Positions 18,073 through 63,294 of a DNA stretch of 64,000 nt are shown here, in pieces. Each line of letters starts with the position of its first letter. Positions within the stretch are counted from its first letter, which is position 1. The translations under genes were made by a program, and so were the position numbers. The notes under the pieces are model-generated. The model ran no database searches. It was not told the origin of the DNA and worked only from the letters and a program-made list of their open reading frames with translations. Origin of the DNA: Deltaproteobacteria bacterium (GTDB lineage: Bacteria > Desulfobacterota > Desulfobulbia > Desulfobulbales > Desulfocapsaceae); assembly GCA_026388715.1 (NCBI GenBank), contig JAPLJF010000034.1, forward strand, positions 1-64,000, read 5' to 3'.

Positions 18073-18129
18073 TTAGGAGCCGTTACGAAATAGTTATAAA
18101 GAGAAAAATTATTTCGTAACGGCTCCTAA
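18073..18129. repeat. Perfect palindromic copy of the dispersed element
   Basis: TTAGGAGCCGTTACGAAATA, 17-nt spacer, TATTTCGTAACGGCTCCTAA: 20-bp perfect inverted repeat. Confidence 0.95.
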
Positions 18130-55318: not shown

Positions 55319-58300
55319 ATGTCTGATCGTTTTGGCGCCATCTCCATCAATCCTGAGCCCGCTCCTCCTTCTGAGCGTCCAAAAAGACCAAAGGCAAAGC
55401 CAGTACCGCCGTCACGGCCCACACCTGACAAATCAGCTGTGGGGCCAAAAAAATCAAGGCGCTGGTTCATCCTGGCTGCTCTTCCGGTTTTTCTCATTGC
55501 GGCCTACAGCGCCGCCGGTTTTTTCCTCGCCCCGGCGCTGCTGACAAGATACCTCTCTAACTCCCTCCAACAAGCTGCCGACATAGGTCTGACTGCGGGC
55601 GAGGCACACTTTAATCCCTTTACCATGCGCCTGCAACTGGACGATGTTTCGACAATAGCCACCACTGACGTCAATCAGCCCCCGACGCCGGAAACTACGC
55701 TCCTGCACATTGATCATGTCCTCATCAACCTGCACCTGATTGCCCTGCTGCACAACAGTCTTGCCTGCAATAGTCTGGAGATTAAAGGACTGACCGCGTC
55801 AGTCATCCGCTACCCGGACAAATCGTACAACCTGCCCGCTCTGGCCTCGGAAAACACCACTGAAAACAACAGCAAGGCCGAAACCGACTCCCTGTCCCGT
55901 CTGCCCCTGCTCTTTTCCCTGAACAATATCACGATCACCGACAGCAGAATTTTCTTTGATGACCGCCTGAATGGGAAAAAACACAGCGTGGAGCAGATCA
56001 AACTGGATCTTCCAACCCTCTCCAACTTCTCCTTTGAGGCCGGGGAGTACATCCGCCCCCACTTTTCCGCCATCATCAACGGCAGCCCGGTGGAACTGAC
56101 CGGTGAGGCCGCGTTACCAGGTGAAAAGGGTCAAAATGGACTGAAGACCAATCTCGCCTGCACTCTCCAGAATCTCGACCTGCCTCTCTATTTTGCCTAC
56201 CTGCCGAAATCTATGCCCCTGGTTCTTGACAAGGGCAAAGGCGAAGGCAAGATCCAGATTTCATTTACCCCAAAAGACAAAAAAGGAGGCCGTCTGACCG
56301 TTGGCTTCCAACTAACGACAACCGGGATCGAACTGGCCAACACCGAGCACTCCCTGGCCATGACCGCACCCTCAATGCAGATCGAGGGAAGCCTGCAACC
56401 ACTTGATGGCGCTCTGCACCTCCACAACCTGCACATCCTGCAGCCACAATTCTCAGCAGATCAGGGTCACTTTTCACAGGATATGGCCCAGCTCTTTTCC
56501 GGACCTGCCACAAGCAAGGACGCGCCGGAACAGCCGCAACATCACCTGGACATTGACTCGCTCACCGTCGAAAATGGCGCTCTACAACTCACCGACAAAG
56601 AGCAAAAAGGCGCTTTGCCACCCTGGACAACGATCCAGATCCAAGTGAAAAATTTCAGCACCGCCTCAGAGCAGGGCCGGGACAAGGGCACATTTACCCT
56701 CAGCAGCAAACAGGAAAAAACCAATGCGGCCCTGAGCTGGCAAGGATCCTTTAACGACCGGGGCATACCAGGCGGCGCCCTGCAACTGGGCAATATCCAG
56801 GCCGGCACCCTTCTCTCCTTCGTTGATCCGGTTCAGGCAAAAAACGCGACAGGGGCTGCCAGTCTGCACGGCCACTTCAGCTTTGACCCGACAACGAAGC
56901 ACTCCGGCATGATCACCTTGATCGACGCTACGACCGAAGTGCATGATCTGACACTGCTTGACCAGAAACAGACATGGCTTGCGGCCAAAAAGGTACAGAT
57001 CACCGGCACAAAGTTCAAAGAAGGCAACCTTGACTTGGGGACCATTGCCCTTACCGAGAGCGTCCTCATCCTCCATCAGGACAAGCTTCCACCATTTCTG
57101 CAAAGTTTCGGCGCCGACAAAAAACCCATCCTGATACAAGGAATTGATTTTTCAGGAAAGGCTACTCTCCACCCTCAAAAAGAAAAGATGCCGGCCCTGG
57201 AGCTGTCCGAACTGCACATGAAGACCGGCAGCCTGACGGCTAAAGGCGCCAGTCAAAACAACTTCGAGTTTGCGGCCAGGATCAACCAGACAGGCATGTT
57301 GAAGGCGCAAGGCCTGGTCTCTCTGTTTCCTGTGCGTGCCTCGCTCTCCCTGGCTCTGGCCGCTATCAGCTCAGAGCAGGTTGCACCCTGGCTTCCCGAT
57401 GCGCCCCTGTTTCAACAAGGCAGGGCCAGCGTGCATGGCCAGGGGACCTACCGTTATCCTGAATCCAGCTTTACCGGCACCTTGCAGCTGAGCGAGGCCC
57501 TGATTCGGGATGACGAAAAAAGTCCCGGCCTGGCCGCAAGCAAGATTGAGCTCAACGATGTCACCATCAAGACCAATCCGCTCCGCATCGGCATGAAGGA
57601 ACTGATCCTTGACGCCCCGAAACTCACCTGGAAGCTGGAGACAGACGGCCCCGGGCCGGTGGCCCAGATCGCCTCCTTTCTCCGCAATCTGCTCTCCCAG
57701 CCACAAAACAGGAAAAATCAGCAACAAAATGCTGGCGACTCCGTTCTGTCTGGTATCCAGAGGATCAGCTTTGATAACGCCACCATCAGCCATGAAGACC
57801 TGCGACTCGACCCACCCTGGTCAGCGTTAATCAGTCAGGTCAAAGGCCAGATCACCAATCCGCATGAAAAGAGTGACGCGGGCGCAAGCCTTGAGCTCTC
57901 AGGCCTTCTTGACACTGTGCCCTTTACCCTGTCCGGCTCTGGAGATTTTTTGACCGGTAAGGGTAACTCTACAACAAAACTCAACCTCAACGGATTTCCG
58001 CTTCTGCCGCTTGCAGCACAGATCACTCCGCTCCTTGATATCAACCCCAAGGCCGGCAGTTTTAATCTCTCCTGCAGCCACACCCTGCAAAATGGCGAAG
58101 AACAGGGAGAGGCGGCCTTTCTCTTCTCCGGGCTCAACCCTGGTTCCGCGAAATCGGAGACCGCCCTACCACTGGCCTTGCTTGCAGACAGCCAGGATCA
58201 GATGAAACTCCTGGTGCCGCTGGCCAAAGACAGCACCCAACCCCTGCTCAAGCAGACTATCGCCACCTTCCAGGCCCTGATGGTCAAGGCCAAGGAGGCG

Positions 58301-58882
58301 CCCTTGCTGCCGGCAGGAGCCGAGTTTACAGACCTTCACGACAAACAGTCTATCCCGTTCCCCGCCGGCCAAAGCACATTTGACGTGAACAGAAGCAGCA
58401 ACGGCCAGGAAACCTTGCGCCGTTTTAAGGCCCTGCTGGCCGCTCACCCTCATCTTGGCCTGACCCTTACCGGCATGGCCGACCCAATCCATGACCGGGC
58501 CGCGCTTTTGAAGACACTGGAAGAAAAAGAAAGAAAACGGGTGGCCCTGAAAAACGAGCAACAATTACAGGCGTGGCAAAAAAAACAAAAAGAAAAAGAA
58601 AAACAGCAAGCACCTCCCCAAATACCGCTACCGGGAAAGATCATCGAACAGGATATCCCCATTCAGGAGGCCCGGCCCGCCCTGCTTAAGCCTGAACCGG
58701 TCACAGTCTCAGACACCACTCTCTATGACCTTGCCCAGGAGCGGGCTTTACAGGTGTACGACTTCTGCACTACTGATCTTGGCATCACTTCGGAACGGAT
58801 CAGCCTCCAGGAAAAGAGCCAACTTAGCACCCCGGAGACAGCAGGAAACCTGGTGAAGATCGGGCTCAGGCCGTTATTCTAA
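55319..58882 (+). CDS. DUF748/AsmA-like large envelope protein
   Basis: 1187 aa; proline-rich basic N-terminus, one TM, AsmA/DUF748-like body, Lys/Glu-rich segment near the C-terminus. Confidence 0.78.
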   Translation: MSDRFGAISINPEPAPPSERPKRPKAKPVPPSRPTPDKSAVGPKKSRRWFILAALPVFLIAAYSAAGFFLAPALLTRYLSNSLQQAADIGLTAGEAHFNPFTMRLQLDDVSTIATTDVNQPPTPETTLLHIDHVLINLHLIALLHNSLACNSLEIKGLTASVIRYPDKSYNLPALASENTTENNSKAETDSLSRLPLLFSLNNITITDSRIFFDDRLNGKKHSVEQIKLDLPTLSNFSFEAGEYIRPHFSAIINGSPVELTGEAALPGEKGQNGLKTNLACTLQNLDLPLYFAYLPKSMPLVLDKGKGEGKIQISFTPKDKKGGRLTVGFQLTTTGIELANTEHSLAMTAPSMQIEGSLQPLDGALHLHNLHILQPQFSADQGHFSQDMAQLFSGPATSKDAPEQPQHHLDIDSLTVENGALQLTDKEQKGALPPWTTIQIQVKNFSTASEQGRDKGTFTLSSKQEKTNAALSWQGSFNDRGIPGGALQLGNIQAGTLLSFVDPVQAKNATGAASLHGHFSFDPTTKHSGMITLIDATTEVHDLTLLDQKQTWLAAKKVQITGTKFKEGNLDLGTIALTESVLILHQDKLPPFLQSFGADKKPILIQGIDFSGKATLHPQKEKMPALELSELHMKTGSLTAKGASQNNFEFAARINQTGMLKAQGLVSLFPVRASLSLALAAISSEQVAPWLPDAPLFQQGRASVHGQGTYRYPESSFTGTLQLSEALIRDDEKSPGLAASKIELNDVTIKTNPLRIGMKELILDAPKLTWKLETDGPGPVAQIASFLRNLLSQPQNRKNQQQNAGDSVLSGIQRISFDNATISHEDLRLDPPWSALISQVKGQITNPHEKSDAGASLELSGLLDTVPFTLSGSGDFLTGKGNSTTKLNLNGFPLLPLAAQITPLLDINPKAGSFNLSCSHTLQNGEEQGEAAFLFSGLNPGSAKSETALPLALLADSQDQMKLLVPLAKDSTQPLLKQTIATFQALMVKAKEAPLLPAGAEFTDLHDKQSIPFPAGQSTFDVNRSSNGQETLRRFKALLAAHPHLGLTLTGMADPIHDRAALLKTLEEKERKRVALKNEQQLQAWQKKQKEKEKQQAPPQIPLPGKIIEQDIPIQEARPALLKPEPVTVSDTTLYDLAQERALQVYDFCTTDLGITSERISLQEKSQLSTPETAGNLVKIGLRPLF

Positions 58883-58915
58883 AACAACCACAACATCAAA
58901 ATATCTTAACCGGCA

Positions 58916-59099
58916 TAAGGTTCCGTAATAAAATGGTCAGGTCGCTCTTCATCCATTCGCCACAGCTCCTGGTATGTTGTTATCGGCAAGACGCCACTCA
59001 AGGAAACAGTCGGAAATGATTGGCTCTTTCCTTGAAGAGGCATAAGGTGTCGTAATAAAATAAGCAAAAAAGCACTGCTTATTTCATAACGACACCTAA
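58916..59099. repeat. Dispersed element copy; 3' hairpin TAAGGTGTCGT.../...ACGACACCTAA
   Basis: 24-nt arms at 59043-59066 and 59076-59099 with few mismatches; 110-bp homology to 63185-63294. Confidence 0.85.
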
Positions 59100-63113: not shown

Positions 63114-63294
63114 GCCGTTAAAATAAAATAACCATATTATTTAAATGGCCATAACGGCATAAGGAGCCATTATGAAATTTGCTAGACGCCACTCACAGAA
63201 ACAACCGGAAAAGATTAGCTATTTCTTTGAAGCGGCATAAGGTGCCGTAATAAAATAAGCAAAAAAGCACTGCTTATTTCATAACGGCACCTAA
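63114..63294. repeat. Composite dispersed element copy with 3' hairpin TAAGGTGCCGT.../...ACGGCACCTAA
   Basis: 24-nt arms at 63238-63261 and 63271-63294; 110-bp homology to 58990-59099. Confidence 0.85.

Follow-up and report, generated by a model that had tools for sequence, protein, structure and literature searches.

The window analysed here is a 64,000-nucleotide stretch of a Desulfocapsaceae genome (contig JAPLJF010000034.1), and all of its features described below are given for the forward strand. It carries two copies of a 110-bp repeat, at positions 58990-59099 and 63185-63294. A first-pass annotation had reported the pair as being of equal length with roughly 11 mismatches, and both copies are indeed found at these positions, aligning without gaps over 110 of 110 bases with 90% identity and 11 mismatches. 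The stem feet read GGTGTCGT...ACGACACC in copy 1 and GGTGCCGT...ACGGCACC in copy 2, so that the T-to-C change on one arm is compensated by A-to-G on the other, as had been noticed, while the core AATAAAATAAGC-AAAAAAGCACT-GCTTATTTCAT is identical in the two window copies. Across an alignment of 40 copies from the source genome, this pair is C-G in 38, T-A in one (copy 1) and A-T in one. It is therefore copy 1 that holds the derived state.

The repeat as first delimited is real, but its limits were drawn too narrowly, since copy 1 sits within an insertion of approximately 231 bp (58868-59098) that has two extra degenerate hairpins 5' of the 110-bp repeat. The complete insertion consists of hairpins C and B', a linker, and hairpins A and B. 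Hairpin C (58869-58914, GCCGTT...CCGGC) is degenerate, forms the left end and is also present as a module of the full-length elements found in other genera; its first bases substitute for the final codons of the upstream ORF. It is followed by a degenerate B' hairpin (58918-58970, AGGTTCCGTAATAAAATGG...GCTCCT), recognized from its sequence, and by a linker (58971-58992, TGTTATCGGCAAGAC) that is conserved in the 40-copy alignment. Hairpin A (58993-59041, GCCACTCAAGGAAACAG...CTCTTTCCTTGAAGAGGC) is helix 1 of the covariation analyses, and hairpin B (59045-59097, AGGTGTCGT...ACGACACCT), which bears the compensatory T-A pair, comprises helices 2 and 3. The copy ends in a TAA (59097-59099; TTA on the other strand), probably the target or target-duplication trinucleotide, which 142 of 143 copies have at this position. 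Copy 2 retains a C hairpin (63114-63158, GCCGTTAAAATAAAATAACCAT...ATGGCCATAACGGC), identified from sequence and from comparison with the relatives G009 and G008, and a remnant of the B' hairpin and linker (63161-63184, AGGAGCCATTATGAAATTTGCTA) left by an internal deletion. Its hairpins A (63188-63236) and B (63240-63292, AGGTGCCGT...ACGGCACCT, with the consensus C-G pair) are supported by the 40-copy alignment and by covariation, and its terminal TAA (63292-63294) coincides with a TAA in the empty site of G009.

Comparison with related genomes shows insertion polymorphism at both sites. For copy 1, the three nearest relatives (G004, G008 and G009) lack the 231 bp and are joined cleanly across the site. 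In more distant relatives the end of the upstream gene is uninterrupted at this site, and one of the more distant genomes, G001, carries an element at this position. Copy 2 is absent in G009 and represented in G008 by a shorter version with the C hairpin. Further filled and empty orthologous sites occur at other loci. The upstream ORF at copy 1 encodes 1187 amino acids (55319-58882), and the insertion altered its C-terminus, which now reads LRPLF (58860-58882); in G004 the same ORF continues with LQYIKQAGQ to a stop overlapping the start of the next gene. At another locus (L041), hairpin B is precisely lost in one relative, and an A-B fusion that still forms a hairpin is present in another (L322 from G009, L323 from G004). 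A further candidate for an empty and filled pair, L029 and L084, was discarded as it proved to be a rearrangement breakpoint and not a simple insertion.

A search of the 36 contigs of the source genome yielded at least 44 copies, and each of the 17 genomes that represent the genus, which are Desulfocapsaceae/Desulfobulbales MAGs, contains the element; these numbers place the repeat far beyond chance. Named records containing an exact 21-base core were Desulfobulbaceae, Desulfocapsaceae and Desulfocapsa MAGs, plus a small number under the names Desulfoarculaceae or Proteobacteria. In the 40-copy alignment the unit consists of two hairpins, a conserved hairpin A and a hairpin B with a conserved foot. 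The consensus begins with the linker TTGTATGTTATCTGCCAGAC before hairpin A, which reads GCCACTC..GAAACAGCC on one arm and GGCTGTTTC..GAAGCGGC on the other and usually contains a bulged A as well as an A·C mismatch. A spacer of three bases (ATA) leads to hairpin B. Above its foot (AGGTGCCGT/ACGGCACCT) this has an internal loop (AA/A), then an inner stem with about 10 pairs, capped by a loop rich in A, and it is directly followed by TAA. The inner stem of B differs in nearly every copy and is almost always self-complementary: 140 copies have 83 distinct 10-mers as their inner arm. Two subtypes of B can be distinguished, BI (AATAAAATAAGC...), which varies little, and others with a nearly copy-specific inner arm. 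Degenerate C and B' hairpins lie 5' of many copies. The units, of about 124 bp, also occur in tandem arrays; at five loci (L030, L033, L080, L101 and L202) the period is approximately 120-150 bp, and in these arrays only the terminal unit has the complete 3' arm of hairpin B, and the linker is specific to the locus yet common to the units within one array.

The full-length C-B' elements from other genera and families of the order reveal what the intact ends look like. These read YTAA|GCCG...CGGCNCC|TAA, and TAA was found by eye at both ends of all 12 oriented full-length elements from other genera, with the base before TAA being mostly C. The terminal inverted repeats of the full-length elements are imperfect, reading inwards AGCCGTTGTC... 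on the left and GGNGCCGTTACG... on the right. On the left sides of the window copies, CAG or CAA stands in place of TAA and the target duplication is not clean. As read from sequence, the full-length ends resemble those of a MITE that duplicates TAA (perhaps YTAA). Moreover, as in MITEs, there are many similar copies without coding capacity, and orthologous sites occur both filled and empty. No transposase gene was found between element ends in the 1.36 Mb of sequence examined, and a search for an autonomous copy by way of terminal repeats 0.6-2.6 kb apart gave no convincing transposase. Diverged C-B' elements were also observed in individual genomes of other Desulfobulbales genera and families (G051, G035, G041 and G019, loci L399-L428), with up to 30 matches per genome.

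A literature search found no description of this element family. The pair is assigned to a previously undescribed family of small mobile palindromic elements of the Desulfobulbales, bacteria of the sulfur cycle, new as a family and of a known general kind. Like the bacterial MITEs with TA termini, namely Correia/NEMIS, ERIC (RU-1) and RUP (reviewed in PMC2229807), the elements are small, palindromic, present in high copy number and able to form stable stem-loops, and they are mostly intergenic, with insertion polymorphism and short conserved ends. Unlike these, to which no sequence relation was seen, they are compounds of hairpins A and B with nearly copy-specific inner stems, have TAA ends, overlap stop codons exactly and are confined to the Desulfobulbales in the searches made. 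Similarity to YPAL (RU-2) of Yersinia is also apparent, as YPAL is palindromic, approximately 168 bp long and mobile as judged from empty and filled sites, while it has no TA termini and generates duplications of 3-26 bp (PMC2229807). The family is unusual in that its stems differ from copy to copy and still pair strictly, and in the precision with which it uses stop codons.

REP, BIME and REPIN sequences with their RAYT proteins (PMC3116915; PMC8266576; PMC3733652) are likewise dispersed hairpins in which mismatches are conserved, and their units too are connected by linkers and form mosaic arrays in tandem, although the present units are longer (about 110-124 bp) and have inner stems of free sequence. 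A rival explanation is that the elements are substrates of a single-strand (HUH/Y1, TnpA_REP-like) transposase that reads structure and unpaired bases, in which case pairing would be selected in the folded single-stranded DNA while the stem sequence is free to vary. The conserved strand asymmetry (A·C mismatch, bulged A, AA/A internal loop and A-rich loop) around an inner stem of free sequence fits this view, and there is precedent in E. coli TnpA_REP, for which the unpaired state of a bulge matters and not its sequence (PMC8266576). Y1 transposases are also present in all 17 genomes. However, no element lies within about 1.5 kb of any of the 30 Y1 loci examined, which led us to reject a RAYT/REP link, and the source genome carries just a Y1 fragment. 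REP and REPIN are defined by a GTAG or CGTC tag at the foot of the hairpin (PMC3733652). This tag is absent in the 40-copy alignment, where the conserved flanks are ATAAGG and TAA, and TAA at both termini points instead to a DDE-type MITE. We regard the Y1 explanation as unlikely.

The attC sites of integrons offer another parallel in that they too are folded sites with a conserved foot, an inner stem conserved only in structure and a stop codon at the edge. The elements could then be dispersed attC-like recombination sites: the stop codon overlaps the site, the order of gene, stop and folded site is that of a gene cassette, and integron integrases score above the cut-off in 9 of 17 genomes including the source genome. 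Against this, the RYYYAAC/GTTRRRY core boxes are missing from the consensus, cassette arrays are absent, and the elements are dispersed behind conserved genes, mostly distant from intI. Furthermore, the site near intI in the source genome is of the ordinary GCCCAAC...GTTGGGC kind and separate from the element. An attC origin was rejected on the grounds of the absent boxes and the normal attC-like site, and it is highly improbable. The integrase in question (G000:C7:43275-44201, equivalent to L360:9775-10701) scores 369 bits against TIGR02249, with the attC-like site lying at a distance of about 3 kb (L360:13703). The same contig also has a pair of B-like hairpins spaced by about 107 bp (L360:5612-5782), about 4 kb from intI.

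The first-pass annotation had taken the compensatory change as a sign that the fold is under selection, as RNA or as cruciform DNA, or that the arms are homogenised during transposition. Rather than losing significance in a larger alignment, covariation there is massive and statistically clear. Among the 40 copies of the source genome, 93.5% of cells pair and double changes occur at 22 of 39 pairs, with 121 double-change cells compared to 29.0 +/- 4.1 in shuffles and at most 24 in slid controls. In 81 copies from relatives there are 278 double-change cells compared to 73.7 +/- 6.0 in shuffles, in an alignment that was fitted to the structure model and is thus biased towards structure. Covariation of this kind is usually read as proof of a selected RNA structure.

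The mismatches point elsewhere. By a single transition, G·T and A·C arise equally easily from Watson-Crick pairs, and an RNA helix would retain the former and reject the latter. At paired sites of the element, the ratio of G·T to A·C is 63:70 overall (24:33 and 39:37 in the two alignments), counted without the columns of fixed mismatches, and parity holds on either strand. In tRNAs of the same genome the ratio is 32:0, where A·C may be under-counted as the stems were drawn by ARAGORN, which may omit mismatches. With G·T no commoner than A·C, in contrast to the tRNA control, it is most likely as DNA, rather than through selection acting on an RNA, that pairing is maintained, and the conclusion should shift from RNA selection to maintenance of the arms as DNA. 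The alternative is that the elements are 3'-UTR hairpins selected for mRNA stabilization or the end of transcription, with covariation reflecting RNA folding. This explanation would account for the strong covariation, for the exact placement behind a stop codon at about half of the loci, for retention at the same loci across up to six species and for the strand specificity of loop and mismatches. It is at odds with G·U being no more frequent than A·C, whichever strand is read, and with the position of many copies, including both in the window, upstream of genes or off stop codons. Nor does the element match any family described in Rfam. A reading as an intrinsic terminator was dismissed because no T-run follows the stem on either strand, and the RNA explanation as a whole appears quite improbable.

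How, then, do the arms stay matched? Orthologous loci were grouped by their flanks into 32 groups, a few of which are array units of a single locus. Between orthologs, flanks have diverged by 11%, the foot by 5-9% and the inner arms by 40-42%, the last value being possibly inflated by register shifts. Over 683 pair positions, both sides had changed at 238 and one side at 47. In addition, L098 differs from L033 and L078 by a 4-bp insertion (ACAG/CTGT) that is symmetric in both arms. Joint change of orthologous arms and the mirrored insertion bear out the homogenisation part of the earlier proposal, at the level of DNA, while a tie to transposition in particular finds no such support, as arms change also in copies that stay at one locus. 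Switches of template from one arm of an inverted repeat to the other have been documented (PMC7202029; PMC8794818; PMC8604942), and mirrored multi-base changes would be its expected footprint. Switching of the replication template within the palindrome would copy a mutation of one arm into the other and keep the two complementary; the inner arms would hence drift fast, becoming unique in nearly every copy and still paired.

Template switching does not fit every observation. Fixed mismatches remain in about two-thirds of copies, and if switching were unrestrained, frequent inversion of the loop would be expected, whereas none of 140 main B hairpins has an inverted apex. Because main B loops are never inverted, loop and foot are taken to be under some strand-specific constraint. 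Sequence-specific constraint, possibly recognition of one folded strand, would hold the foot of B together with the inner part of stem A, the loop rich in A, and the fixed bulged A and A·C mismatch. One B' hairpin (L034:528) does have an inverted loop, inside a perfect palindrome.

The position of the elements relative to genes is just as distinctive. The element ends in ...CCTAA, which on the opposite strand reads TTAGG, and the TAG within it closes an open frame of at least 40 codons in 94 of 143 copies, compared to 23 and 19 for the other frames. When each locus is counted once and at least 60 codons are required, 50 of 90 are in frame and 10 and 9 in the others. When distances are measured between the element end and the longest convergent ORF, they form one sharp peak, at 0 (47 of 90 distinct loci), and 142 of 143 copies have a T before the stop. 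On the far side, ORF heuristics gave an ambiguous gene orientation. YPAL is said, from work by De Gregorio in 2006, to tend to sit closely behind stop codons; here, unlike in YPAL, the element end itself provides the stop. Related C-B' elements from other genera do not sit at stop codons.

Element-free orthologs terminate at the same codon with their native stop. Of 11 informative loci, 8 (L017, L018, L020, L031, L035, L041, L045 and L046) read T-TAA or T-TAG there, with the caveat that some of the G016 sites counted as empty have CCTAA at their end and could be what is left of elements since lost. The exceptions are L026, L037 and L040, the empty orthologs of which have TGA or ATAA at the stop. 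The sequence of the empty sites suggests insertion into a TTA(R) target, and such insertion together with a rebuilt TAG would explain both the exact position and the almost invariant T. Target preference alone may not yield so sharp a peak, since TTAA and TTAG occur in intergenic DNA too. Selection for a hairpin right behind the gene may contribute, and target choice and selection against disrupting compact operons may each have a share.

Taken together, high copy number, presence throughout the genus, an insertion polymorphism with a clean junction, the compound nature of the hairpins, the TAA that bounds full-length relatives on both sides and covariation without G·U preference make it probable that the pair are non-autonomous, palindromic, MITE-like mobile elements with YTAA/TTAR-like insertion and arms matched by template switching. 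A putative transposase acting in trans would insert them at YTAA/TTAR-like targets, of which a stop TAA or TAG after T is one. As the element end reads TTAGG outwards, an in-frame TAG would be rebuilt and the gene left intact, so that many surviving copies would be those exactly on stop codons. More tentatively, the element may actively target stop codons, its transposase recognizing TTA(R), its own end rebuilding TAG and replication matching its arms. We consider this stronger version possible, if rather doubtful. If true, the element would spread through compact operons without breaking genes, its copy-unique inner stems would limit recombination between copies, and a stop supplied at the insertion site would be a neat way of spreading harmlessly through genomes dense with genes.

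Being numerous, natural, strongly covarying and intolerant of G·U, these hairpins are also a test case for separating DNA-level from RNA-level patterns, as the copying of arms by template switching would produce just such a DNA-level pattern. The family model can further be used in annotating Desulfobulbales MAGs. Elsewhere in the window, at 18076-18126, sequence inspection reveals a related B'-type hairpin element, a near-perfect palindrome bounded by TTA and TAA, with a loop and inner stem unlike those of the family.
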